Shown here: one piece after another, positions 4,807-37,468 of the stretch
Layout of the letters: each line of letters begins with the position of its first letter
Position numbering within the stretch: the stretch's first letter is position 1
Source of the DNA: Haloferax elongans ATCC BAA-1513
GTDB lineage: Archaea > Halobacteriota > Halobacteria > Halobacteriales > Haloferacaceae
Assembly (NCBI RefSeq): GCF_000336755.1
Contig: NZ_AOLK01000011.1
Location: 507,103 to 571,102, forward strand
Reading direction: 5' to 3'
Length of the DNA stretch: 64,000 nt
Notes under the pieces: generated by a model
The model's database searches: none
What the model was told of the DNA's origin: nothing
The model's input: only the letters and a program-made list of their open reading frames with translations
Program-made: the position numbers and the translations under genes

Positions 4807-6828
4807 TTAGCGGGTCGCGTCCGTCGCCTCGACCTCCGTCGCTTCGACTTCCAGTGTCGCCAGCGTCGCCAGCCGAAGCGCGTGCGGCCAGCCGAGCGGG
4901 GTCGCGCTGTCGGGCGTTCCGTCGTCGAAGAACTGCTCGGCGAGGTAGCCTTCGTCAGTGCAGAGGGGACCGCCGGGAAGGACGAGCGAGAGGAGCGACC
5001 GACTCTCGTCGAAGAAGTCGCCCGCGCGCTCGTCGCCGTGGGCAGCGAGTAGCGCGCCGAGTTCGACGGCGGCGTTCGCACCCCACGCGGTCGAGACCGT
5101 CCAAATCTTCTCGGAGGACTGCTCGCGCATCCGCCAGTCGTCGCCCTCGAAGCGGACAAGCCCCTTCACGTCGCTCTCGTCGGGGTCGTGCCAGAGGCCG
5201 TCGAAGACGGACTTGACGTGGGTAACGAGGCGGTCGACGCGCTCGTCGCCGACGGCTTCGAGGCGGTCGTAGGCGCGGTGGGCAGACACGAGCGCAAGCG
5301 CGGCAGAGTCGTACCGGTCGTCGAGTTCGCCGTCCGCGAGTCGGAGTCCGTAGCAGTCGCGCTCGTCGCTCCAGAGCAGGTCCACGCCGTCGTACACCTC
5401 GTGGGCGCGCGTAGCGGCCCGGTCGGTGAGGTTGTCGTCGAGGCCCGAAGTGGCGAGCGCCGCGTAGGCTTCGAGGAACGTCGCCGCCGTGTGGCTGAAC
5501 CGCCCGGTCATGTTCTCCCACGCGTTCTGGCACTCGACTGGGAGCCCATCTTCACCGAGCGTCTCGTCGAGGCTGTCGAGCGCGGCCTCGAGCGTCGTTT
5601 CGATGTCGGCGCGCAGGGATTCGTCGTCGCACTCGTCGTAGAACGTCGCGAGGAAGGCGATGACGCTGCCCGTCTGGTCGGCTTGGTAGTCGGCGTCGTC
5701 ACCCGATTCGAGCCGCGCGTTCGCCCAGCCGGGCGCGAGCGAGCCGTCGAACGGCCAGACACGGTGGGGCCACGACCCGTCGTCGCGCTGGGTCCGACAG
5801 TAGGCGCGGGCGCTGCGGGCGTGCCAGTCGTCGAGGTCGAGGCCGAGTCGTTCGTCGGATTCGAAGAGGAACCGAGAGATTTCCGCATCGTCGCGGAACC
5901 ACGTGTAGCCGTAGCCACCGGAATAGGCGTAGTAGGGGTCGAAGTCCGGGCCGGCGATACGAAGACCGAGCGGGCCAGAGAGAAGTGAGAGAACGCGTAG
6001 GTCGTCGCGCATCGCGCTCGCATCGGCGTGGTCGGGGACGGTCCCGGCGATACCAGCACCAGCGCGCGCTTCGAGTTCCTCGCGGTCAAGGCTGACGAGC
6101 GACCGGACGGTTTCGAGCGCTTCGTCGCGGTCTGTCTCGCTCTCGTCGGTGACGAGCGAACCGACGGTCGCCGCCCCGGATTCGAACGGGATGGTCGCGA
6201 CCACGGCACCGCTCAGTTGTCCTTCTTCGTAGCGGTCGTCGGAGCGCGGTCGGGGGAGTTCGACGTGCGTGTCGGCGAGGAGTTCGTCGAACTGCTCCGG
6301 GACGCGGCCTTCGACGGTGTCGAATGCGGGCGACGACGCGACGAAATCGTGTTCCTCGGTGTGGTACACTTCGACCGCGTCGCCGTGGGTGAGTTGCCCG
6401 ACGAGTGTGTCGCGGCCGTCCGGGTGGAAGTGGACGAAGGCGACGAGTTCGACGTCCGCGTCCGTCTCGAAGTGCGTGACGTGCGCGTCGTCCGTCGTCA
6501 GGTCGTACTGCGTTACGTCCCCGAGGGTCGTCTCGTGTTCCGTGACGACGAGCCCGCCGTCACCGGCGTACGACTGGGTCGCGTCGTCGTCGAACCACTC
6601 GACCTCGGTGTCTTCGTCTCGCGGTCGGACGCCAAATCGGGAGCGCTCGACACCCCAGCGTCCGGTCAGGGGGAATCCGAAATCGCGGACCGAGCCGTCG
6701 GTCTCGACGTGGACGAGTCTGTCCCCGAGTCCAGAAAAGCGGCCGCTCGTCGTTCGTCGTTCGCCAGGGAACCGCGTCGGGTGGTCCGCATGGCGTTTGT
6801 AATCGGCGAGTGCGTCACGGAGTTGCAT
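4807..6828 (-). CDS. Glucan 1,4-alpha-glucosidase (glucoamylase), glycoside hydrolase family 15
   Basis: 673 residues with no signal peptide, so it should act in the cytoplasm, releasing glucose from imported malto-oligosaccharides. The first ~270 residues form the N-terminal beta-sandwich region of prokaryotic GH15 enzymes. The (alpha/alpha)6 catalytic domain follows, with YSGGYGYTWFRDD near residue 300, a WPHRVWPFDG loop, and LPVECQNAWENMTGRF near residue 435, whose Glu after Trp fits the general acid of GH15. The region DSATPLGWPHALRL near the C-terminus corresponds to the second catalytic segment, though I cannot assign the base residue. It lies convergent to the ATPase gene and divergent from trmB. 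Confidence 0.88.
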   Translation of the reverse strand: MQLRDALADYKRHADHPTRFPGERRTTSGRFSGLGDRLVHVETDGSVRDFGFPLTGRWGVERSRFGVRPRDEDTEVEWFDDDATQSYAGDGGLVVTEHETTLGDVTQYDLTTDDAHVTHFETDADVELVAFVHFHPDGRDTLVGQLTHGDAVEVYHTEEHDFVASSPAFDTVEGRVPEQFDELLADTHVELPRPRSDDRYEEGQLSGAVVATIPFESGAATVGSLVTDESETDRDEALETVRSLVSLDREELEARAGAGIAGTVPDHADASAMRDDLRVLSLLSGPLGLRIAGPDFDPYYAYSGGYGYTWFRDDAEISRFLFESDERLGLDLDDWHARSARAYCRTQRDDGSWPHRVWPFDGSLAPGWANARLESGDDADYQADQTGSVIAFLATFYDECDDESLRADIETTLEAALDSLDETLGEDGLPVECQNAWENMTGRFSHTAATFLEAYAALATSGLDDNLTDRAATRAHEVYDGVDLLWSDERDCYGLRLADGELDDRYDSAALALVSAHRAYDRLEAVGDERVDRLVTHVKSVFDGLWHDPDESDVKGLVRFEGDDWRMREQSSEKIWTVSTAWGANAAVELGALLAAHGDERAGDFFDESRSLLSLVLPGGPLCTDEGYLAEQFFDDGTPDSATPLGWPHALRLATLATLEVEATEVEATDATR

Positions 6829-7054
6829 TGGTAACTCGTCTCTTTCCGGTGAGTAATAACTTTGGTGTAATGCTCATTCAAACTTTCATGGATTCCCGAA
6901 ACGCTATCAAACCCGTCGGTGAACGTCGCAGTATGATACGTCACACTGCTATCACCAGATGTACGGGAGGCGCAGTGCCGCAGAACCGTCGCAGAACCGT
7001 CGCCGACGCGTCGGAGTCGAGTGATTAAGTACCGTGGTCGATGACACTCCCACC

Positions 7055-8104
7055 ATGGACGACCGCGAACTCGCCGACCACTTGGAGCAGTTCGGCCTCT
7101 CCGAGAAGGTCGTCGACACGTACCTGACCCTCCTCGAACTCGGGGAGGCGAAGGCGAGTCAAATCGCCGACGCGGCGGGTGTCTCCAAGCGCTACGTCTA
7201 CAGCGTGAGCAAGGAACTCGAAGAGCGGGGCTTCGTCGAGGTCAACGACCACGTTGTGCCGACGACGATTCGCCCCCGCCCACCGGCCGAAGTCATCGAA
7301 TCGCTCTCCGAAAACGTCGCGTCGATGCGACCCGCGCTCGAAGCGCGATACACGGCCACCGCGCGCGACGAAGAGCGATTCGAGGTCATCAAGTCGCGCG
7401 TAACTGTCATCAAGCGCATCGCCGAACTCGTCGGTCGTGCGGAGTCGGAAATCACGCTCTCGCTGCCGTACGACGTCATCGACGAAGTCGAAGACGAACT
7501 GCGTGCCGCTCGCGAACGCGGCGTTCTCATCTCGCTCGTCATCAGCGGCGTCGAACCCCACGACGAACTCTCGCTCGATGGGCTCGCGTCGCTCGTCCGC
7601 GTCTGGCACGAACCCATGCCGACGATGCTCACCGTGGACTCTCGAATCGGTCTCGTCGCGCCCGGTGAGATGGTCGCGCGGTCGAACACCGACTCGCAGG
7701 CTATCGTCTTCGCACAACCGCATCTCGGCCCGGTCATCGTCGGGTCGTTCTTCGGGAACTACTGGCCGATGGCCGCCGAGGCGTACATCTCCGAGCCGGA
7801 CCCGCTTCCGACGACCTACTACAACTTCCGCCACGCCGTCTTGCAGGCCGCGCTCTGTGCTCGCGAGGATCTCGACCTCGAAGTGACTGCCCACGGTCGG
7901 ATGGTCCACACCGACGGCCCGACCGAACTCCACGGCCGAATCGTCGATATCCGCCAGGGGCTGCTCGAACCTGCGAACAACTCCTTCCCGGTCGAGAACA
8001 CGCTCGTCATCGAGACGGACGACGGCACGTACAGTATCGGTGGACTCGGCGCGTTCGTCGAGGACTTCGAAGCCGAGTACGTCGAACTCAAGCGCGTCTC
8101 CTGA
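7055..8104 (+). CDS. trmB: TrmB-family sugar-sensing transcriptional regulator
   Basis: About 349 residues from the ATG at 7055 (a GTG at 7034 gives seven more). The N-terminal winged helix (residues ~5-75, with LLELGEAKASQIADAAGVSK as helix-turn-helix) precedes a short linker and a C-terminal sugar-binding domain, the usual TrmB layout. TrmB proteins in archaea repress or activate sugar transport and glycolysis/gluconeogenesis genes in response to glucose or maltose. Its position beside the glucoamylase and importer suggests it controls this locus. It is transcribed divergently from the glucoamylase gene, with a 226-bp shared upstream region. Confidence 0.9.
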   Translation: MDDRELADHLEQFGLSEKVVDTYLTLLELGEAKASQIADAAGVSKRYVYSVSKELEERGFVEVNDHVVPTTIRPRPPAEVIESLSENVASMRPALEARYTATARDEERFEVIKSRVTVIKRIAELVGRAESEITLSLPYDVIDEVEDELRAARERGVLISLVISGVEPHDELSLDGLASLVRVWHEPMPTMLTVDSRIGLVAPGEMVARSNTDSQAIVFAQPHLGPVIVGSFFGNYWPMAAEAYISEPDPLPTTYYNFRHAVLQAALCAREDLDLEVTAHGRMVHTDGPTELHGRIVDIRQGLLEPANNSFPVENTLVIETDDGTYSIGGLGAFVEDFEAEYVELKRVS

Positions 8105-26710: not shown

Positions 26711-27334
26711 TTATGGGCCTTCGAGGACGTTTGCTGCTGGCGTCCGACGGCCGCAGTCTGGGCAGAACGCCCAGTCAGAACGAAGTTCGGCATTACACTC
26801 ACAGAATACTCGTTGGGTCGCTTTCTCGCCGCAGTTCGGGCAGTAGACGTGGTCTCCGTCGATGGACTCGCCGCACTGCCCACACGTTAGTTCGGTCTCT
26901 TCGGGGACGTTGCCTACTCTCGCCGTGTCGTGGTGGGTGTCGTCACCCGGTCCATCGGGCGTCTTACGTTTTGCATTCGCCGTTGTATCGGGCTCATACT
27001 CCGCGTTTACGCCAGAATCTCCGTCTGCACCGTCGACGTTGATGTTGACAGTAACTTCAGACGAGTTGCCATGCTCGTGGTTGGGGAGTGCGTCGTCGAG
27101 ATACGCGGGGAGTCGCTCTTCCAATCGGCGTTCCACGAGTTCGTCGACTCGGGCAGTCAGCACGTCGTCGAAGTCCGTCGGCTGACTGTCGGACTCGTCT
27201 GCGTCAGTCTGGTCACGTTCCATCTGGTCGAGGTACTGGCGCAGGGCTTCGCGCATCACCTCGCTCTTGGAGGTGTCGAGGTCCTCCAATCGCCCGACGA
27301 GAGCGTCGTCGGCGCGGAACGTGATTTTCGTCAT
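26711..27334 (-). CDS. cdrL: CdrL-like regulator: ribbon-helix-helix plus double zinc ribbon
   Basis: 207 residues. The N-terminal RHH domain (MTKITFRADDALVGRLEDLD, then SKSEVMREALRQYL) is followed by an acidic linker of about 90 residues with a predicted valine-rich strand (SEVTVNINVDG). Two zinc ribbons are at the C-terminus: CGQCGESIDGDHVYCPNCG and CECNAELRSDWAFCPDCG. The order cdrL-cdrS-ftsZ2 is the one described for haloarchaea, where CdrL (the larger partner) regulates the cdrS operon. A perfect palindrome CCGAGATTATCTCGG lies 5 nt before its ATG. Confidence 0.85.
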   Translation of the reverse strand: MTKITFRADDALVGRLEDLDTSKSEVMREALRQYLDQMERDQTDADESDSQPTDFDDVLTARVDELVERRLEERLPAYLDDALPNHEHGNSSEVTVNINVDGADGDSGVNAEYEPDTTANAKRKTPDGPGDDTHHDTARVGNVPEETELTCGQCGESIDGDHVYCPNCGEKATQRVFCECNAELRSDWAFCPDCGRRTPAANVLEGP

Positions 27335-27451: not shown

Positions 27452-27525
27452 CCGCTCTTAGCTCAGCCTGGCAGAGCAGCCGACTGTAGATCGGCTTGTC
27501 CCCCGTTCAAATCGGGGAGAGCGGA
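27452..27525 (+). tRNA. tRNA-Tyr (anticodon GTA)
   Basis: Full cloverleaf. Acceptor stem CCGCTCT/AGAGCGG with discriminator A; anticodon arm GCCGA-CTGTAGA-TCGGC with anticodon GTA; T arm CCCCG-TTCAAAT-CGGGG. CCA is not encoded and no intron is visible. A TTAAAA box about 26 nt upstream fits a promoter. It lies divergently downstream of cdrL. Confidence 0.95.
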
Positions 27526-27563
27526 CTTTCTCACCAGTTCAACTCTGAGAGCCAGAGCCGTCG

Positions 27564-27758: not shown

Positions 27759-28967
27759 ATGTCTCCCAGCCTCTCGTCGAGTGAATTCGCCACTCGACTC
27801 GACGCCGTTCGCGGCAACCTCGCCGACACAGCTGCCGATGCGGGCGTCTGGTTCAGTGCGACGAGTATCGAGTACCTGTCTGGGTTTCACCATATTCAGA
27901 CCGAGCGTCCCGTCGCGCTCGTCGTCACCGACGACCGGGTCGAACTCGTCGGACCACGACTCGAACTCGAACGAGCGAGTAACGTCCGACAAATCGACCG
28001 CGTGCGTACGTACTTCGACTACCCCGGTGGGAATCCGATGGGAACGCTCGCTAACACCCTCGACGCGCTCGGTGTAGACCACGTCGCGGCCGACGCCGAC
28101 GGCGCACCGGGAGTGATGGGCTATCAGGGTCCCGCTCTTTCGGAGTTCGTCGAGGTGACGACGCAGCAGTGGGTGCCGCGAATGCGTTGGGAGAAGACCG
28201 ACGCCGAAATCGCCTGCATTCGTGAGTCTGCCCGATGGGCCAATCTGGGACACCGATACCTCGCCGACTTCACCGAAGTTGGCGCACACCCGGTGACGGT
28301 CTCACAGCGTGCTTCCATGGAGGCGTCGCGGGCCATGCTCGACACTCTCGGCGACCGGTACGTTCCTCGCACCCGTGGTGGTGGCCCAGTCCACGCGGGC
28401 TACATCTCCGGGTCCGAAACCGCGCTCCCGCACGGACACACGCCGAACGAACGACTCTCGGAGGGCGACGCTATCATCACCGGCGCGACGGCCATCGTCG
28501 ACGGCTACTACTCCGAACTGGAGCGAACGATGTTTGTCGGCGACCCCTCTGACGAGGACGAACACTACTTCGAACTCATGCTGGAGGCGCAAGACATCGC
28601 CATCGACGCGCTCGCTCCGGGCGTTCCGGTCGATTACGTCGACCACCTCGTCTGGGAGTACTTCGAAGAACAGGGCGTCACCGACCTCGCACAGCACCAC
28701 GTCGGCCACAACATCGGCCTCGGCGCGCACGAACCGCCGTACATCGACCGCGGCTGGGCTGACCACTGCCTCGACGACGAGACCGACTTCACCGAGTCGG
28801 ACGCCGAAATCGCCGCCGGACAGGTCTACACCATCGAACCGGGACTCTACACCGAGACGACCGGCTATCGACACTCGGACACGGTCGCTATCACCAACTC
28901 GGGGACGGAGATGCTCACGTACTTCCCCCGCGATATCGAGTCGAACACACTCTCTGTCGAACGCTGA
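27759..28967 (+). CDS. M24-family protein (Xaa-Pro peptidase/creatinase fold) with altered metal site
   Basis: 402 residues. N-terminal creatinase-like domain (1-~150), then the pita-bread domain. Of the five metal ligands expected in Xaa-Pro peptidases, the His (HHVGHNIGLGAHE) and the first C-terminal Glu (YTIEPGLY) are present. The positions usually Asp, Asp and the last Glu read as Thr (IITGATAIVDG, near residue 241), Glu (YSELERT, near 253) and Ser (GYRHSDTV, near 373). The protein may thus resemble metal-independent creatinase-type members rather than an active aminopeptidase. Downstream by 80 bp begins the cobamide salvage operon, probably separately transcribed. Confidence 0.85.
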   Translation: MSPSLSSSEFATRLDAVRGNLADTAADAGVWFSATSIEYLSGFHHIQTERPVALVVTDDRVELVGPRLELERASNVRQIDRVRTYFDYPGGNPMGTLANTLDALGVDHVAADADGAPGVMGYQGPALSEFVEVTTQQWVPRMRWEKTDAEIACIRESARWANLGHRYLADFTEVGAHPVTVSQRASMEASRAMLDTLGDRYVPRTRGGGPVHAGYISGSETALPHGHTPNERLSEGDAIITGATAIVDGYYSELERTMFVGDPSDEDEHYFELMLEAQDIAIDALAPGVPVDYVDHLVWEYFEEQGVTDLAQHHVGHNIGLGAHEPPYIDRGWADHCLDDETDFTESDAEIAAGQVYTIEPGLYTETTGYRHSDTVAITNSGTEMLTYFPRDIESNTLSVER

Positions 28968-29047: not shown

Positions 29048-29683
29048 GTGGCCATCACGTTCGACCTCTTCGGCACGCTCGTCGACGCCGAGTATCCTGA
29101 CAGCCCCAGTTCGGCCGTCGCAGACGAACTCTCCGAACTTGGCGTCTCGGTCCCAGACGATTGGGACGATGCGTACCGTGAGGTCCACATCGATGCCCCC
29201 GACGGTGCGGAAGTCCCGCTTCCGGCGCACGTCGCTGCGGCGCTTCGCTCGCGCGGCGCTACGTCTCCCGACAACGCCGCCCGCCGAGCGGTCGTCAACG
29301 CGTTCGATCCCGAAGTGACGACGCGCCCCGGTGCGGTCGATGCGGTCAAGACTGCCCGTGAGTGTGGTTCAGTCGGCTTGCTGTCGAACTGCTCGGTCCC
29401 GGAACTCGTCTCACGGACGCTCATCCGGTCGGACCTCGGCCGACGCGACTTCGACGACATCACGACGAGCGTCGCCTGCGGATGGCGAAAACCGCACGAA
29501 CAGGCGTTCGAAGCCTCGGCCCGTGGACTGGGTGTCGCCCCGTCGGACGTGACCCACGTCGGCGACGACCCGGCGACGGACGGCGGTATCGAGGCCCTCG
29601 GCGGACAGTTCGTGAACCTCCGTGAGACGACGCTGGACGCGTTCGCTGCCCGAATACGGCGAGGTGACGGCCCATGCCCGTGA
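29048..29683 (+). CDS. HAD-superfamily hydrolase, first gene of the cobamide salvage operon
   Basis: 211 residues from a GTG. HAD motif I is FDLFGTLVD at the N-terminus, motif II is in LLSNCSVP, motif III Lys in GWRKPHEQAF and motif IV HVGDDPATDGG. It overlaps cbiB by 10 bp, so it is part of the operon. Archaeal cobinamide salvage needs a phosphatase for the adenosylcobalamin-5'-phosphate or alpha-ribazole-phosphate step, and no cobZ/cobC gene is present here. A HAD phosphatase in this position is a reasonable candidate, which is inference. Confidence 0.85.
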   Translation: MAITFDLFGTLVDAEYPDSPSSAVADELSELGVSVPDDWDDAYREVHIDAPDGAEVPLPAHVAAALRSRGATSPDNAARRAVVNAFDPEVTTRPGAVDAVKTARECGSVGLLSNCSVPELVSRTLIRSDLGRRDFDDITTSVACGWRKPHEQAFEASARGLGVAPSDVTHVGDDPATDGGIEALGGQFVNLRETTLDAFAARIRRGDGPCP

Positions 29684-30624
29684 CTGCCGCGGTTGCTGTC
29701 GCCGCCGCCGCACTGCTCGACCGACTGTTCGCCGAACCACCGGCCAGCGTCCACCCTGTCGCCCTGTTCGGGCGTCTGGTCGCACTCTTCGACCGCGAGT
29801 GGTCGTCCCCGACGGTTGTGGGTGCCTGTGCCGCGTTTACGCTGCCTGCGCTGGCTGCGGGTGTCGTCGCGGCCGCGACGTGGGCCGGGTCGTCCGTCTC
29901 TCCGTGGGTTGGTGCGGCCGTCGCCGCGCTCGTGCTCTTTTCGACGACGAGCCTCCGAATGCTCCTCGACGCGACCGAGGCTGTCGTCTCGGCGACCGCC
30001 TCAGACGTCGATGCGGCTCGAACGGAACTCCGTGCGCTCGCCGGACGCGACCCTGCGTCGCTCTCGGCGGGCGAGATTCGCAGTGCTGCCGTCGAGAGCG
30101 CGGCCGAGAATCTCGCGGACGGGCTGGTCGCGCCGCTTCTCGCGTTCGCGCTCGTCGTGCCGTTCTCACTTCCCCTCGCAACCGGCGCGGCAGCGTGGGT
30201 GAAGGCCGTAAACACGCTCGATTCGATGCTCGGTTACCATCACAAGCCGGTCGGTCGCGTTCCGGCCCGACTCGACGACGCGACGATGTGGCTTCCCGCC
30301 CGTGTGTCGGCTGTCTTACTCGCCGCCGTCGGCGGGTCTCCGAGTGTCCTCGGACGCGTGGGGTCGCTGGCGCGACGACCGGCTTCGCCCAACTCTGGCT
30401 GGCCGATGGCGACGCTCGCGGTCCTCTTGGAAACGCGACTTGAGAAGCCCGGACACTACTGTCTCGACGGCGGCCCCGACTTCCCGGACTCGGAGACGGC
30501 TGCACGAGGTGTTCGACTCGTCTCACGTGCAGGCCTGGCCGCGTTCGCGCTTGCGGGCGTGGTCGCGTGGCTGTCGCCAACGGGGAGTGCGCCCGTGCCT
30601 GTGGAGGTGTTTGCATGGTTCTGA
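29674..30624 (+). CDS. cbiB: Adenosylcobinamide-phosphate synthase CbiB
   Basis: 316-residue polytopic membrane protein that joins aminopropanol (phosphate) to adenosylcobyric acid. Typical features are the N-terminal LLDRLFAEPPASVHPV (LDxxxGDPxxxxHPV-like), the helical region with ESAAENLADGLVAPL, NTLDSMLGYH and RLDDATMWLPAR, and the C-terminal LLETRLEKPGHYCL. Works with the CobD enzyme encoded four genes downstream, which makes the aminopropanol phosphate. Overlaps its neighbours by 10 bp on each side. Confidence 0.93.
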   Translation: MPVTAAVAVAAAALLDRLFAEPPASVHPVALFGRLVALFDREWSSPTVVGACAAFTLPALAAGVVAAATWAGSSVSPWVGAAVAALVLFSTTSLRMLLDATEAVVSATASDVDAARTELRALAGRDPASLSAGEIRSAAVESAAENLADGLVAPLLAFALVVPFSLPLATGAAAWVKAVNTLDSMLGYHHKPVGRVPARLDDATMWLPARVSAVLLAAVGGSPSVLGRVGSLARRPASPNSGWPMATLAVLLETRLEKPGHYCLDGGPDFPDSETAARGVRLVSRAGLAAFALAGVVAWLSPTGSAPVPVEVFAWF

Positions 30625-31379
30625 GCGCAATTCGCGGTGGGCTTGGGTTCCTCACGCGACTCCCGGTTGGCGGTGGCGAGACCGAGTGGAACGCCTTCAG
30701 ACGCTCACCAGTCGCGTTTCCACTGGTCGGCTACGTCGTCGGCGGACTCGCAGCCCTGCCGCTTATCGCTCCCCTGCCGGTCTCGACGGCCGCCGCGCTG
30801 TACCTCGTGACGCTGTATCTCGTGACCGGTGTCACCCACGCCGACGGCCTCGCCGACTTGGGCGACGCCGCTGTCGTCCATGGGGACGACGAACGCCGGA
30901 TGTCGGTACTGAAAGACTCGCAAACGGGTGTCGGCGGCCTTCTCGCGCTCGGGCTGACGCTGGTCGTCCTCGCACTCGGGGCGCTCGGCCTCGCGGGTGC
31001 CGCCGGGCGCGTGGCGCTCACCGCGGGCGTCGCAATCGCGGTCGCTGCCGAGGTCGGCGCGAAAGCCGGGATGGCGACGCTCGTCTGTCTCGGCGACCCG
31101 GCACACGAAGGCATGGGTTCCGCGCTGGTCGGCGCAAACGGCCCACTCGGACTGTTCCGCGTCGCTGTCGCGTGCCTCCCGGTGGTCGCACTCGCCCCGC
31201 TGACGGGCGAGGTTGCTGTGTTCACCGCGCTCGCCTGCGGCCCGCTCGTCGCCCTCGTGGTTCGCTCGTGGGGACGGAAACACCTCGGCGGCGTCTCGGG
31301 CGACCTCATCGGCGCGACGAACGAACTCGCGCGGGCAACTGCAATTCACGTGGGGGTGGTGACGTGGACGCTCTTGTGA
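30615..31379 (+). CDS. cobS: Adenosylcobinamide-GDP ribazoletransferase (cobalamin synthase) CobS
   Basis: 254 residues from the ATG at 30615, with many hydrophobic helices. The signature near residue 75 is THADGLADLGDAA, with DERRMSVLKDSQTGVGG after it. The enzyme condenses adenosylcobinamide-GDP with alpha-ribazole (phosphate) in the membrane. The start overlaps cbiB by 10 bp and its end overlaps cobY by 16 bp, so translation is coupled along the operon. Confidence 0.93.
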   Translation: MVLSAIRGGLGFLTRLPVGGGETEWNAFRRSPVAFPLVGYVVGGLAALPLIAPLPVSTAAALYLVTLYLVTGVTHADGLADLGDAAVVHGDDERRMSVLKDSQTGVGGLLALGLTLVVLALGALGLAGAAGRVALTAGVAIAVAAEVGAKAGMATLVCLGDPAHEGMGSALVGANGPLGLFRVAVACLPVVALAPLTGEVAVFTALACGPLVALVVRSWGRKHLGGVSGDLIGATNELARATAIHVGVVTWTLL

Positions 31380-32059
31380 TGTGCGGTGGCCTCGGAACCC
31401 GCCTCGACGCACCGGTCGAAAAGCCCCTCGTCGAGGTGTGTGGCCGACCGATGTTCGACCGCGTCGTAGACGCGCTTCGCCAGTCGCGTATCGACCAGAT
31501 TCACGCAGTGGTCTCACCACACACGCCCGACACGCGCGCTCACGCGAACGCGAGAGATATCTCGGTCATCGACGCGCCCGGCGAGGGCTACGTCGCCGAC
31601 CTCGGGTTCGCCCTCGAACAAGTCGGTCGCCCGGTTCTGACCGTCGTTTCCGACCTGCCACTCTTGGAGGCGAGTCACGTGAACGACCTCATCGACGATG
31701 CCGCCGGCGCGACCCGGACGGCGTGTGTTCCGGTGTCGCTGAAGCGGTCGCTCGGTGCCAGCATCGACGAATTGGTAGTCTTCGAACACCGCGGGCGCGA
31801 GGTGTGTCCGACTGGACTGGGCATCGTCGGGGCCGAGACAGCAGAACGGACAGACTCCGAACCACGTCCCGACGCGGCGACCGCGGACAGTAGCACCGAA
31901 GCGACCACAGACAGCACAGATTCACCGACCACAGACAGCACAGACTCACCGACTACAACCACTTCCGATTCAACCGTGTACCTCACTGCAGACCCGAAAC
32001 TCGCACTCAACGTGAACCGTCAGACAGACATCGCACTCGCGGAGGACCGATGCGAGTAA
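31364..32059 (+). CDS. cobY: Adenosylcobinamide-phosphate guanylyltransferase CobY with low-complexity insert
   Basis: 231 residues from the GTG at 31364; the frame upstream is a shadow of cobS. The nucleotidyltransferase start [20 protein letters not shown] and the catalytic segment [13 protein letters not shown] are typical of archaeal CobY, the non-orthologous replacement of bacterial CobU. It makes AdoCbi-GDP for CobS. Unusual: near residues 170-205 there is a Ser/Thr/Asp-only insert, partly encoded by two copies of a 24-bp repeat (31903-31950), before the conserved C-terminal [15 protein letters not shown]. CobY proteins are usually about 200 residues. Confidence 0.92.
31903..31950 (+). 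repeat. Two tandem 24-bp units inside cobY
   Basis: The unit begins GACCACAGACAGCACAGA, with one base difference between copies, and a third degenerate start follows. It encodes repeated TTDSTDSP in frame (24 bp = 8 codons). Confidence 0.85.
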
Positions 32060-33057
32060 TCCTCGTCGCCGGTACGACCCAGACCGCGAAGATTCCCGGC
32101 ATCAGCGCCGCCGGTGCCGACCCGTCGCTCGTCGGCCACACGCCGAGCGCCGACGCCGAAATCGTCGAGTTCGGCCAGACCGTCCGCTCGCCGGTGACGC
32201 CCGTCAGTCCGACAGGGTGTCCGACGCCCGCAGCCATCACGCGCGCCGTCCGAGAACTCACTGGATTCGACGCGCTCGTGGTCGACGGCGGGCTCTCGGA
32301 GCCGACTGGCGCGCCGACTATCGACGTGGGCGCGATGCCCGGCCGCGACATCCGCGAGGAACAGCCGGTTCCGACCGCACCGGGTGCGTTCGAGGCCGCC
32401 CGCCAACTCGCCACCACACTTCCAGAAGACGAACTCGTCATCGGCGAGACCGTCCCCGGCGGGACGACGACGGCGATGGCCGTCCTCCGCGCGCTCGGCG
32501 AGGACTTCGGCGTCTCCTCGTCGCTCCCGGAGAATCCGACCGACCTCAAAGAGGAGGTCGTCGCCGACGCGTTCGACGCGAGCGGTCTCTCGCCGGGCGA
32601 CGCAGCACACACCCCAAAGCGCGCCGCTCGGTACCTCGGCGACCCCGTGCTTCCCGTCGTCGCCGGGCTGACCGTCGGCGCGCTCGAATCGGGTATCGAG
32701 GTGACACTCGGCGGTGGCACGCAACTGCTCACGGCCGCGGCGCTCGCCCGCCACGCCGGCGCAGTCGGCGACCTGTCGCTTGCGACGACCAGCTATCTCG
32801 CTGACGACGTGCCACACCTCGAAGACGCGGCCGAGGCGTTCGACCTCGACCTCGTCGTCACCGACCCCGAGTTCGAGTCGCACCCGCTCGACCGATACGC
32901 CGCTGGCGAGGCCAAGGAAGGCGCGTGTATGGGCGGCGCGCTCATGCTCGCCGACCGGATGGGCGTCCTCGACGACGTCGAGGCGGCGACGCTGGACGTA
33001 CTCTCGCGTCTCGACCCGGAGGCAGTCGACGCCGACGCGGTCGAAGACGATGCCTGA
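32050..33057 (+). CDS. cobT: Archaeal CobT: nicotinate-nucleotide-dependent phosphoribosyltransferase for the lower ligand
   Basis: 335 residues. [20 protein letters not shown] at the start, [20 protein letters not shown] (near residue 135) and [15 protein letters not shown] (near 220) are typical of the archaeal CobT-like family. It activates a lower-ligand base to its alpha-riboside phosphate for CobS. Overlaps cobY by 10 bp and is followed by cobD after 8 nt. No separate base-synthesis gene is in the operon, so the lower ligand must come from elsewhere. Confidence 0.9.
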
Positions 33058-33065
33058 GGTCGCCG

Positions 33066-34097
33066 ATGGACCCTGACGCCGTCTCCCGGGCGAGTCGCGT
33101 GCCACACGGCGGAACCACGGATACGTCCGTCCTCGACTTCAGTGCGAACACGAACCCGGAGCGTCCCGAGGGTGTTCGAGACGTGTACGCGGCCGCCTTC
33201 GACGACGCCACTCGCTACCCGGACGACGAGTATCGGGAGTTTCGGGTCGCCGCCGCCGAGTACGTCTCCCGCGACCAAGCTGAGGCAGCCTGTTCGCCCG
33301 ACGACGTGATTCCGACCGCGGGTGGTCTCGAAGCGCTTCGCCTCGCGTTCGAGGTCACGCTCGGCCCGGGCGACTCGGCACTGGTTCCGCAACCGAGCTT
33401 CGGCGAGTACGACAGAGAAATCCGTCTGCAGGGTGCCGAGCCGGTTTCGGTCGCACACGACGCGATTCTCGACGCAGACCCCGAGCGCCACGAGGTCGCC
33501 GTCGTCTGCACGCCGAACAACCCGACCGGAGCGGTCGCATCCCCCAATGAACTCCGGGAATTTGCCGCCCGGTGCCGCGAGTCGGACACTGTTCTCGTCG
33601 TTGACGAGGCGTTTCTCGACTTCACCGACGTACCCAGTCTCGCTGGTACTTCGGGCGTCGTGGTCGCGCGTTCGCTGACCAAGATGTTCGGGCTGCCGGG
33701 AATCCGTGCCGGGTTCGCCGTCGCGGTCGGGGAACTCCGCCAGCGACTCGCAGTTGCCCGGCGCTCGTGGTCGCTTTCGACTCCCGCCGCCGCAGTGGGT
33801 GCCCACTGCATGCGCGACGAGGCGTTCGTCTCCAGGACTCGCGAGCGAGTCGCGGCCGAGCGCGAACGACTCCGCGAGTCCTTGTCGGACGACTTCGACG
33901 TGTTCCCGTCGGATGCACCGTTTCTCCTGCTCGACGTTGGCGACCGCGACGTCGCCACCGTGGTCGAAACGGCACGCGAGCGAGGCGTCGCAATCCGCGA
34001 CGCGACGACGTTTCCGACGCTCGATTCGCACGTCCGCGTGGCCGTGAAGCGCCCGGACGAAAACGACCAGTTGCTCCGCGCACTCGCCGATGTTTGA
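33066..34097 (+). CDS. cobD: L-threonine-O-3-phosphate decarboxylase CobD
   Basis: 343 residues from the ATG at 33066. Fold-type I PLP enzyme: SANTNPERP near the start, CTPNNPTGAVASP (PLP-ring Asn), VVDEAFLDFTD (Asp to the pyridine N), ARSLTKMFGLPGIRAGF with the PLP Lys at residue 206, and the C-terminal substrate-carboxylate Arg in DSHVRVAVKRP. It makes (R)-1-aminopropan-2-ol phosphate, the linker used by CbiB. Overlaps cbiZ by 8 bp. A paralogue lacking the Lys lies two genes downstream. Confidence 0.92.
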   Translation: MDPDAVSRASRVPHGGTTDTSVLDFSANTNPERPEGVRDVYAAAFDDATRYPDDEYREFRVAAAEYVSRDQAEAACSPDDVIPTAGGLEALRLAFEVTLGPGDSALVPQPSFGEYDREIRLQGAEPVSVAHDAILDADPERHEVAVVCTPNNPTGAVASPNELREFAARCRESDTVLVVDEAFLDFTDVPSLAGTSGVVVARSLTKMFGLPGIRAGFAVAVGELRQRLAVARRSWSLSTPAAAVGAHCMRDEAFVSRTRERVAAERERLRESLSDDFDVFPSDAPFLLLDVGDRDVATVVETARERGVAIRDATTFPTLDSHVRVAVKRPDENDQLLRALADV

Positions 34098-34827
34098 GGT
34101 CACGTGCCGCGACGGCGTCTGCCGAATCTTCCGGCCCGAGACGCGGTGGCTCTCGACTGGCTACGACGGCGGTGAGTCGCACGGGAACGTCGCGTACAAC
34201 ATCTCTGTTCCCGAGGGCTGGCCGGAGACGGACCTCGATACGTACGTCGAGGGGCGACTCGCCGATGCAGGGTTTACTGATGGTGGTCCGGCACTGCTCA
34301 CCGGCGTCGACCAGCAACATGCTCGCCGGGCACGGTTCGGACCCGTCGAGGTCGTCGCGACGGCGGGTGTCTCGAACCCCGCCGAACTGCCGGTCGAGGG
34401 CCTTCGTGACGGAGGGCGCGAGAACGAGCCGGTCGATGGTGTCGCTGACGACTCGTCGGACTCCGACGAGCCGCAACTCGGCACCGTGAACGTGGTCGTC
34501 GGAACGACGCGGTCGCTCGCGCCCGGTGCGTTGCCGAATCTCGTCGCAGTGGCTGCCGAGGCGAAGGCGGCGACACTGCTTTCGCGCTGTGGGTCGCCCG
34601 GAACGACGACCGACGCCATTGTGGCCGCCTGCGACCCTGCGGGTGAGGCAGCATCGTTTTCGGGGAGCGCGACCGAGATCGGAAACGCCGCCCGCGTCTG
34701 CGTTCGCGACGCGATTCTCGCCAGCCTCGACTCGCGATACGCCGACAGAGAACTGCCGACGTCGGTCGAAGACGCACAGTACGGAGTCGTCGCAGACGAA
34801 CACGCGACCGTCTCGAACGTCGACTAA
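34090..34827 (+). CDS. cbiZ: Adenosylcobinamide amidohydrolase CbiZ
   Basis: 245 residues. Conserved segments are RWLSTGYDGGESHGNVAYNISVP (seen at residues ~18-40), TAGVSNPAE near 95 and GTVNVVVGTTRSLAPGALPN near 133. CbiZ cleaves imported adenosylcobinamide to adenosylcobyric acid, feeding CbiB. This is the archaeal salvage route shown in Methanosarcina and Halobacterium. A short acidic insert (DGVADDSSDSDEPQ) is a haloarchaeal extra. Last gene of the tightly overlapping operon; the next gene is 161 bp away. Confidence 0.92.
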   Translation: MFEVTCRDGVCRIFRPETRWLSTGYDGGESHGNVAYNISVPEGWPETDLDTYVEGRLADAGFTDGGPALLTGVDQQHARRARFGPVEVVATAGVSNPAELPVEGLRDGGRENEPVDGVADDSSDSDEPQLGTVNVVVGTTRSLAPGALPNLVAVAAEAKAATLLSRCGSPGTTTDAIVAACDPAGEAASFSGSATEIGNAARVCVRDAILASLDSRYADRELPTSVEDAQYGVVADEHATVSNVD

Positions 34828-34988
34828 CCGGCGAGGTACGCGCGACTGCTCCCGAGTGGGTGGCCGCCAAGAGCCGTGAGCGGAACACAGATTAGACAGA
34901 AAAAACCTGATTTTTCCATCGAATCGTCGGTGGTACCCAGTCGGTCTGTGAAGAAGATTTGAATATGGTTCATATCTAGCATGTACTC

Positions 34989-36002
34989 ATGGACTCCAGT
35001 TCCGTTTCAGACGTCGACCCAGTGACGCACGGCGGAACTGCCGACTACTCGCTCGTCGATTTCAGCCTCGGGTCGAATCCCGAGCGACCCTCAGGGCTCG
35101 CAAGCGTCTACGAATCAGCCCTCTCTACGTCTCGGCGGTACGCGTTGGACGACTACGCTGCGTTCCGCGTCGCGGCCGCTGACTTCGTTGGCTGCGACCC
35201 TGAACACGTCGTTCCGGCTCCGGGCGTCATCGGGGCACTGCGCCTCGCTATCGGCGTGACTGTCTCGCCCGGCGAATCGGTGGTAATTCCAGAACCCTGC
35301 TCCGGCGAGTACGCCCGCGAGGTCAGATTGCAGGGCGGTGAGCCGTACCACGTCCCGTACGAGGACATACCCACCGACGTCGACCCCGAAGCGCACGCCG
35401 CAGTCGTGCTGAGCTATCCGAGTGACCCACTCGGGGCGGCGTATTCGGCGGACGAACTTCGAGCGTTCGTCGATATGTGTCGCTGTGCAGGTACTCCACT
35501 TCTCGTCGACGAGTCGCAACTCGGGTTCACCCGACTGCCGAGTACGGCCGGTCTGGACGGTGTCATCGCACTCCACTCGGTGACGAACGTCTTCGGCGTC
35601 CCGTCACTCAGAGCGGGATTCGCTGCGGCCACAGGCGACCTCCGAGACAAACTCGACCGCGCGCGCTGTACGTGGGTGCTGTCGAAGCCCGCTGTGGATG
35701 TCGCAACGTTCTGCCTGCGCCAAACTGAGTTCCTCGAAGCGACTCGCAAGCGAGTCGAGACCGAGCGCCCCCGAATCGTCTCCGAACTTCGGCGTCTCGG
35801 CTACGACCCGTCCCCGTCCGACAGCGCCTTCGTCTTGTTCGAAGCACCGGATGTCGACCGCGTCCTTCACGAGACGCGGAAGCGTGACCTCGCAGTCCGC
35901 GACGCCAGATACTATCGGTCGCTGGACTCACACGTCCGAATCGCGGTTCGCCGACCGCACGAAAACGACAGGCTCCTCGACGCGCTCACCGAGGCGATTT
36001 GA
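34989..36002 (+). CDS. CobD-like paralogue lacking the PLP lysine (predicted pseudoenzyme)
   Basis: 337 residues, clearly homologous to CobD (33066) over its whole length: THGGTADYSLVDFSLGSNPERP, EYAREVRLQGGEP, DSHVRIAVRRPHENDRLLDAL. The key catalytic positions differ. The PLP Lys region reads LHSVTNVFGVPSLRAGF, with Asn at about residue 200 in place of Lys. The CTPNNPTGA motif is SYPSDPLGA, and VVDEAFLDFT is LVDESQLGFT. It therefore probably cannot form the internal aldimine. It has its own TATA-like box (TTTGAATATG) about 30 nt upstream and a leaderless ATG. A role as regulatory subunit or binding protein is possible. Confidence 0.85.
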   Translation: MDSSSVSDVDPVTHGGTADYSLVDFSLGSNPERPSGLASVYESALSTSRRYALDDYAAFRVAAADFVGCDPEHVVPAPGVIGALRLAIGVTVSPGESVVIPEPCSGEYAREVRLQGGEPYHVPYEDIPTDVDPEAHAAVVLSYPSDPLGAAYSADELRAFVDMCRCAGTPLLVDESQLGFTRLPSTAGLDGVIALHSVTNVFGVPSLRAGFAAATGDLRDKLDRARCTWVLSKPAVDVATFCLRQTEFLEATRKRVETERPRIVSELRRLGYDPSPSDSAFVLFEAPDVDRVLHETRKRDLAVRDARYYRSLDSHVRIAVRRPHENDRLLDALTEAI

Positions 36003-36092: not shown

Positions 36093-36866
36093 ATGGTAGA
36101 GGCGTTCGCCGTCGCCAGCGGGAAAGGCGGGACGGGCAAGACCACGAGTACGCTCGCGCTCGGGATGGCACTCGCAGAGGAGTACGACGTGACGGTCATC
36201 GACGCCGACACGGGGATGGCGAACCTGCTGTTCCACGCCGGGTTGGACGACGCCGACGTCACCTTACACGACTTGCTCATCGCCGACCGAGACGTGGCGG
36301 TCGAAGACGCCGTTTACGACCGGTTCGGCATGTCGGTCGTCCCCTGTGGAACCAGCCTCACGGCGTTCGAAGCGGCCGACCCGAAGCGCCTGCGCGACGT
36401 AGTCGCCGAACTCGCCGCCGACACCGACGTCCTCCTTCTCGACTCACCCGCCGCACTCGGCTCGAAGAGTGCCGTGCTTCCCATCGTTCTCGCGGACCGA
36501 ATCGTCGTCGTCCTCCAACCGACGGTGCCGTCACTCTCTGACGGGCTGAAAGTCCAGGAGTACGCTCACTCCTACGGCACCGAGACGGCGGGTGTCGTGT
36601 TCAACCGCGTCCGCGCCGACGAGGACGTAGAGCGAATCGCCGAGCAGGCGGGTCGGTACTTCGGTGGGCAGACGCTCGCGTCGGTCCCGGAGAGTGACGC
36701 CGTCCGCGCTGCGCGGCGGTCGGGTGAACCGCTCTTGGCGCACGCCCCCGACGACCCGGCGGCAGACGCCTTCAGAGAGGCGGCGGCACGGCTCGACGTT
36801 CGCGATGGCGACGAACACGACGTCGCCGAGCGCTTCCGAAGCGCCGTCGTCCCCGAGCGCGTATGA
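36093..36866 (+). CDS. minD2: MinD/ParA-family ATPase (MinD2-like)
   Basis: 257 residues from the ATG at 36093. Deviant Walker A SGKGGTGKTTSTLAL (residues ~8-22), Walker A' VIDADTGMANLLF and Walker B-like DVLLLDSPAALGSKSAV. I see no obvious C-terminal amphipathic membrane helix of the bacterial MinD kind. In H. volcanii, a MinD homologue with a downstream overlapping partner affects cell shape and motility (published; I recall MinD2/HVO_0595). The same arrangement is seen here: the next gene starts inside the last codons (4-bp overlap). Confidence 0.85.
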   Translation: MVEAFAVASGKGGTGKTTSTLALGMALAEEYDVTVIDADTGMANLLFHAGLDDADVTLHDLLIADRDVAVEDAVYDRFGMSVVPCGTSLTAFEAADPKRLRDVVAELAADTDVLLLDSPAALGSKSAVLPIVLADRIVVVLQPTVPSLSDGLKVQEYAHSYGTETAGVVFNRVRADEDVERIAEQAGRYFGGQTLASVPESDAVRAARRSGEPLLAHAPDDPAADAFREAAARLDVRDGDEHDVAERFRSAVVPERV

Positions 36867-37468
36867 GAATTCCACGTGGTGCACTACTTCGGTCACGCGT
36901 CGTCGACGACCCCGGCGACGCGCTCGCCGAGGTTCTCGACGAGGGGCTGACCGGCTACGTCGTGTTCGAGCCACAGGACGCACTCCTGCTTGGTGAGTCG
37001 ACCCGCGGTATCGTGACGTTCGAAGATGGGATTCCCGTTCTCGCGTACGACACCGAACGAGACGAGGGTGGTCGCGACGGACTGGAGGGCTTCGCAGTTA
37101 CAGGCCCTCACCGGGTCGCGGTCCACGCCGTCGACGCCGACGACCTCGCCGAGGCGCACGAAACCGAGGCGTTCCGCGTGGCGCCGGACGAACCTGCGCG
37201 CGTCCTCGCTGGCGACGAACGGCTGGCAGACCGGACGCTCGACGCCGCCCCTGAATCGAGACGCGAAGCGGGGCGCGACCAGAGCGCGCTCGAAGCGTTT
37301 CTCTCCGACTCGGAGGCTATCGAGCAAATCCAGTCGGAGGCGCGGGCAGAGGCACAGGCACGGGCCGAAGAATGGGGCCTCGAATCGGCCCTCGTCGATG
37401 ACGACGACGAGCAACTGCCCGGGCGCGACGAGGCAGACGATGTCGCACACGGCGGAACGCGGTACTGA
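36863..37468 (+). CDS. MinD2-coupled protein of unknown function (HVO_0596-like)
   Basis: 201 residues, ATG overlapping the minD2 stop (ATGA). The N-terminal ~100 residues look like a small beta-rich domain (TGYVVFEPQDALLLGESTRGIVTFEDG, seen in parts). The C-terminal half is a charged helix (SEAIEQIQSEARAEAQARAEEWG) with an acidic tail. No known domain is recognised. The tight coupling suggests it works with the ATPase, and in H. volcanii the homologous pair is linked to cell shape and motility (from memory). Confidence 0.75.
   Translation: MRIPRGALLRSRVVDDPGDALAEVLDEGLTGYVVFEPQDALLLGESTRGIVTFEDGIPVLAYDTERDEGGRDGLEGFAVTGPHRVAVHAVDADDLAEAHETEAFRVAPDEPARVLAGDERLADRTLDAAPESRREAGRDQSALEAFLSDSEAIEQIQSEARAEAQARAEEWGLESALVDDDDEQLPGRDEADDVAHGGTRY

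Follow-up and report, generated by a model that had tools for sequence, protein, structure and literature searches.

The window, i.e. the whole 64-kb stretch of Haloferax elongans DNA that was analysed, contains a run of cobamide genes on the forward strand in the order cbiB-cobS-cobY-cobT-cobD1-cbiZ, which is followed, after 161 bases, by cobD2, minD2 and an HVO_0596-like gene. The upstream block of cobamide genes (29674-33057, +), identified from NCBIfam and Pfam matches and with a gene order conserved across the taxonomic order, comprises cbiB (29674-30624, +), cobS (30567-31379, +), cobY (about 31379-32059, +) and a cobT-like gene (32050-33057, +). The next gene, cobD1 (33069-34097, +), is the orthologue of HVO_0591 by synteny and encodes a protein with the PLP lysine in place (RSLTKMFG), while cbiZ (34090-34827, +), coding for an adenosylcobinamide amidohydrolase (Pfam PF01955, 1.7e-39), is the final gene of the conserved cob run, as also indicated by synteny. 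To the right of cobD2 (34989-36002, +) are found minD2 (36093-36866, +; NCBIfam MinD) and the HVO_0596-like gene (36863-37468, +), both in synteny in the Haloferax regions that were read. In the window species the gap between cbiZ and cobD2 (34828-34988) includes a T-rich stretch, ATTTTTCC, which may terminate the cob transcript. A tRNA-Tyr (GTA) gene lies upstream of the cob region (27452-27526, +), and two synteny anchors flank it: a gene for a CdrL-like protein (26711-27334, −) and one for an M24-peptidase-like protein (27759-28967, +), which resemble, respectively, neighbours of the lysine-less CobD copies of genomes G326 and G154 discussed below.

The cobD2 reading frame is intact from the ATG at 34989 to the TGA at 36002 (337 codons), and its translation can be aligned in full with the neighbouring CobD1 of this operon (47% identity, E 3e-101). 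The preliminary description of this gene as a CobD paralogue that lacks the PLP lysine and adjoins the cobamide operon is borne out, with coordinates, strand and quoted motifs all exact; the assignment is further sustained by the TIGR01140 profile and by 15 orthologues. With respect to the curated TIGR01140 cut-off of 290.55 bits, CobD2 falls below it (197.7 bits), whereas CobD1 is just above it (291.0 bits).

Alignment with Salmonella enterica CobD places Asn200 (codon AAC, 35586-35588, +), within the motif LHSVTNVFG, at the position of the Schiff-base lysine K216. This position is occupied by Asn in 15/15 Haloferax CobD2 and by Lys in 14/14 Haloferax CobD1, so that the orthologue survey that had been suggested found the lysine restored in none. 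Two other motifs are changed in the window sequence, namely NNPTG, which reads SDPLG (35421-35435, +) with Asp146 in the place of N157, and DEAFLDF, which reads DESQLGF (35508-35528, +) with D185 kept. The proposal that all three PLP-contact motifs are altered thus holds for the window sequence; of the three, the replacement of Lys by Asn alone extends to the whole family. Residue N157, a PLP contact, is Asn in 12 of the 15 CobD2 sequences (as SNP or ANP), Asp in the two larsenii-like ones and His in one (N146H); D185, the partner of the PLP ring nitrogen, is Asp in all 15, and the Q of DESQLGF is specific to the larsenii-like pair, so that for the family the proposal is overstated.

The pocket has, on the other hand, undergone changes beyond those initially recognized. 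With S. enterica CobD as the reference, N32G and G222S are found in 15/15 CobD2, the ring-stacking F108 is replaced by Cys or Ser in 15/15, the phosphate-loop Gly by a bulkier residue (Val in 14, Ala in one), and R212 by His in 14/15. S213, T215 and R224 are unchanged in 15/15, as are R323 and R337 (R304 and R317 in CobD2), which we take to be substrate-binding from the S. enterica structures; S197, R208, D174, R304 and R317 of CobD2 make up the retained anion-binding side of the pocket. Y51 is the equivalent of S. enterica Y56, a residue that presumably reaches over the dimer to the PLP phosphate, and is Asp in 3/15 CobD2. The roles of the PLP- and substrate-contacting residues of CobD2 are assumed from the CobD and HisC structures. 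Lysine-bearing CobDs have 81 columns with a conservation of 95% or more; every CobD2 retains 55 of these and every CobD2 lacks 13, which mostly belong to the active site or its immediate surroundings (N32, G107/F108, N156, A187, L214, K216 and G222), as opposed to none lost by CobD1 out of a comparable set of 83.

The predicted CobD2 structure (pLDDT 94.2) superimposes on S. enterica CobD (1lc5) with a Z score of 38.9 and an rmsd of 2.0 Å over 325 residues. With this L-threonine-O-3-phosphate decarboxylase (1lc5/1lc7/1lc8) CobD2 shares the fold, D185, S213, R224, R323 and R337, and like a CobD it adjoins cobamide genes; it differs from it in having Asn at K216, Gly at N32, Cys or Ser at F108 and Ser at G222, and it scores below the curated TIGR01140 value. 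Histidinol-phosphate aminotransferase (HisC) belongs to the same superfamily and gives Z scores of about 36-38; however, CobD2 reaches only 121 bits with the HisC family (cut-off 277) and is devoid of the lysine. A Porphyromonas gingivalis protein with the CobD fold, deposited as L-threonine-O-3-phosphate decarboxylase (3fkd), carries His at the lysine position as judged from the alignment (SFSHAYG), but the replacement is His and not Asn, the protein is bacterial, and F108 and the Asn pair of NNP are retained. Outside this family, the hLCB1/SPTLC1 subunit of serine palmitoyltransferase is without the PLP lysine and is retained beside its active paralogue hLCB2 (PMC3794620). CobD2 is similarly a lysine-less homologue accompanied by an active CobD1 in all 15 genomes (one assembly being frameshifted), with the difference that hLCB1 is of another family and that its heterodimer is established, while that of CobD2 with CobD1 is only proposed.

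The NG86 dN/dS medians, calculated on the same 91 genome pairs, are 0.18 for CobD2 and 0.19 for CobD1, with the caution that distant pairs are saturated, close pairs giving about 0.06-0.2. Conservation in CobD2 peaks in a 30-residue stretch (within 178-210) that includes N200 and has 27/30 invariant positions, versus 22/30 for this stretch in CobD1, a degree of conservation reached in 1 of 5000 shuffles; invariance of a single site is weak by itself since 179 of 337 CobD2 columns (53%) are invariant. A BRE/TATA-like element, AGAAGNNTTGAWTA (34952-34965, +), is located 36-37 nt upstream of the cobD2 ATG; it is exact in 14 of the 15 cobD2 upstream regions, with one mismatch in the 15th, and occurs a single time in the 64-kb window. 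Leaderless transcripts are usual in haloarchaea, and the 36-37 nt spacing fits such a transcript for cobD2. Thus, cobD2 is under strong purifying selection, has its own promoter-like element and is not decaying. The expectation of a conserved fold under selection is met by the Asn in 15/15, the close dN/dS values of the two copies, the fold match and the conservation of the lysine region, and the dN/dS check that had been recommended revealed no sign of neutral decay.

Both CobD copies are present in 15/15 Haloferax species. In one assembly (L035, from G009) the CobD1 frame shifts after approximately residue 223, with CobD2 intact, which may be a sequencing error. The window cobD2 is 97-98% identical to that of H. 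larsenii at this gene, and the location between cbiZ and minD2 is found in the window, in six more Haloferax regions and in H. profundi (L037). Among 148 genomes of the family, 129 of which have any match, a second diverged CobD copy is seen in Haloferax only, and one non-Haloferax genome has two places with identical scores; a search of 342 genomes of the order located the CobD2 motif in Haloferax alone. In the tree CobD2 forms a single clade with a long stem (0.84 changes per site) that evolves at ordinary rates within Haloferax. The free tree does not join CobD2 to CobD1 and leaves its sister open, and in AU tests, both of which are limited by the long branches, neither the union with CobD1 (p 0.10) nor a common origin of the lysine-less copies from haloarchaea (p 0.46) is rejected. 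The simplest reading is that cobD2 arose by tandem duplication no later than the Haloferax stem and then changed in a burst, although an older origin is conceivable.

Reading residue by residue 46 other haloarchaeal CobDs showed Lys in 44 and Asn in two, from G326 (RSLTNIFG) and G154 (RSLSNLFG), and a search for the RSL[ST]N pattern over the order yielded none beyond these. Both are full-length homologues (L126 of G326, 6992-8068; L127 of G154, 5989-7011) and represent the one close CobD of their genomes, in which cbiB and cobS were searched for and not found (G154 being 81% complete). The G326 copy is near cdrL/ftsZ, lipoate ligase and thioesterase genes, and that of G154 is near sfsA and an M24 peptidase gene; cdrL/ftsZ and the M24 peptidase gene also flank the Haloferax cob region. 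In a further genome, G150, the CobD of the cob cluster is ordinary, and beside gyrB lies another copy (L128, 3920-4993) in which the PLP lysine is replaced by Thr. No neighbour common to all lysine-less copies emerged when looked for, and the lysine-less copies had no counterpart in those congeners of G326, G154 and G150 that were searched. Nearly all lysine-bearing CobDs have Asn at position 32, and none of the lysine-less ones read retains it.

On balance, we favour the view that cobD2 is a duplicate, confined to Haloferax as sampled, which was fixed as a pseudoenzyme and most likely serves as a non-catalytic partner of CobD1 or as a ligand binder. That CobD2 is a maintained pseudoenzyme appears highly probable, while its specific identification as a heterodimer partner or regulator is considerably more tentative. 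The CobD duplicate would have lost the Schiff-base lysine and reshaped its cofactor pocket along the fast stem branch, and would then have been fixed as a pseudoenzyme by strong purifying selection. It could form a heterodimer with CobD1 in which it is the subunit without lysine, as hLCB1 is to hLCB2, or bind L-threonine phosphate or a similar phosphorylated ligand and so tune the aminopropanol-phosphate step. Normal PLP-dependent decarboxylation of L-threonine phosphate would not be carried out by CobD2 because the internal aldimine cannot form, making, from the sequence, a decarboxylase role very unlikely; this inactivity, as well as the dimer partner, the ligand and the regulatory role, is what we infer for CobD2. 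The kept fold, the anion-binding residues and R304/R317 are in keeping with a protein that binds a phosphorylated amino acid but does not turn it over, and the closest working precedent is hLCB1; hence our preference for CobD2 as a partner of CobD1 or as a ligand binder next to it. The Asp found at Y51 in 3/15 CobD2 makes an obligate heterodimer in which the two subunits share a site less plausible and, together with the orphan copies of G326 and G154, is the main counter-evidence.

These orphan copies, each the sole and Asn-type CobD of a genome without detectable cbiB or cobS, imply that CobD1 is not required for a lysine-less CobD to be retained and point to a function outside the pathway, so that a cobamide role should not be assumed for CobD2 either. 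CobD2 might accordingly have left cobamide synthesis, with the fold reused as a sensor, a carrier or a non-PLP enzyme and the adjacency to the cob genes surviving as a trace of the duplication. We regard such a departure as rather unlikely: the full-length state of the orphan copies, their proximity to genes found next to the Haloferax cob region as well and the position of the promoter-like element of cobD2 outside the cob run speak for it, but CobD2 co-occurs with CobD1 in 15/15 species and stands beside cbiZ in the regions read, the substrate arginines R304/R317 are kept in 15/15, G154 is incomplete and the AU test does not decide between one and several origins for the orphan copies and CobD2. 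The retained D185, S213 and R224 would also fit non-covalent holding of PLP or PMP, and CobD2 could then catalyse an altered, lysine-free reaction, in the manner of the lysine-less, PMP-dependent sugar dehydratases, ColD for example. N157, conserved in 12/15 CobD2, and the Porphyromonas homologue with His at the lysine position are in line with this proposal, which is nonetheless improbable as several contacts are gone together (F108 to Cys or Ser and N32 to Gly in 15/15, Val in the phosphate loop in 14) and Asn is no substitute for the acid/base supplied by His.

A decaying duplicate heading for loss could be invoked to explain the long stem and scattered losses such as Asp at Y51 (three species) or His at N146 (one), but the gene is intact in 15/15 species with a dN/dS equal to that of CobD1, the best conserved stretch lies at the altered site, and there are the promoter-like element and the high-confidence fold, so that this explanation deserves very little credence; neutral decay in particular is rejected by dN/dS and by the conservation around N200. 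Similarly small is the chance that CobD2 has the same threonine-phosphate decarboxylase function as CobD1, as the published annotation of its H. volcanii counterpart would have it. HVO_0593, the orthologue of the window cobD2 by name, neighbours and numbering, is listed as cobD2, isofunctional 'yes', on the basis of 51% identity to HVO_0591 (PMC8305020). The published passage and table concerned make no mention of the missing lysine and give no characterised homologue ('no GSP') (PMC8305020), and against isofunctionality are the absence of the Schiff-base lysine in all orthologues and the score of CobD2 below the TIGR01140 cut-off. Thus, judging from the residues, the label of a second working CobD is likely an annotation error, and the HVO_0593 annotation should change given that a residue essential to CobD catalysis is missing. 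According to the same paper, the haloarchaeal L-threonine kinase step (EC 2.7.1.177) lacks an assigned gene (PMC8305020). Most sampled haloarchaea are without a second CobD, so that CobD2 is not a general answer to this gap, which is haloarchaea-wide; as a general L-threonine kinase CobD2, with the second copy restricted to Haloferax in the sample, was rejected.

The favoured reading of CobD2 as a pseudoenzyme makes cobD2 a clean and genetically tractable case among archaeal PLP-enzyme relatives, as cobD1 and cobD2 are separately deletable in the model archaeon H. volcanii. With lysine-less homologues elsewhere, two of them in genomes without detectable cbiB and cobS, a non-catalytic role beyond cobamides becomes testable. 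It may even be speculated, albeit with considerable doubt, that CobD has repeatedly lost the PLP lysine and then been kept for a long time, which would have produced a family of non-enzymes whose function outlives cobamide synthesis. If so, proteins with the CobD fold would bind a phosphorylated amino acid or a related ligand without being enzymes, and Haloferax CobD2 would be the best-populated branch.
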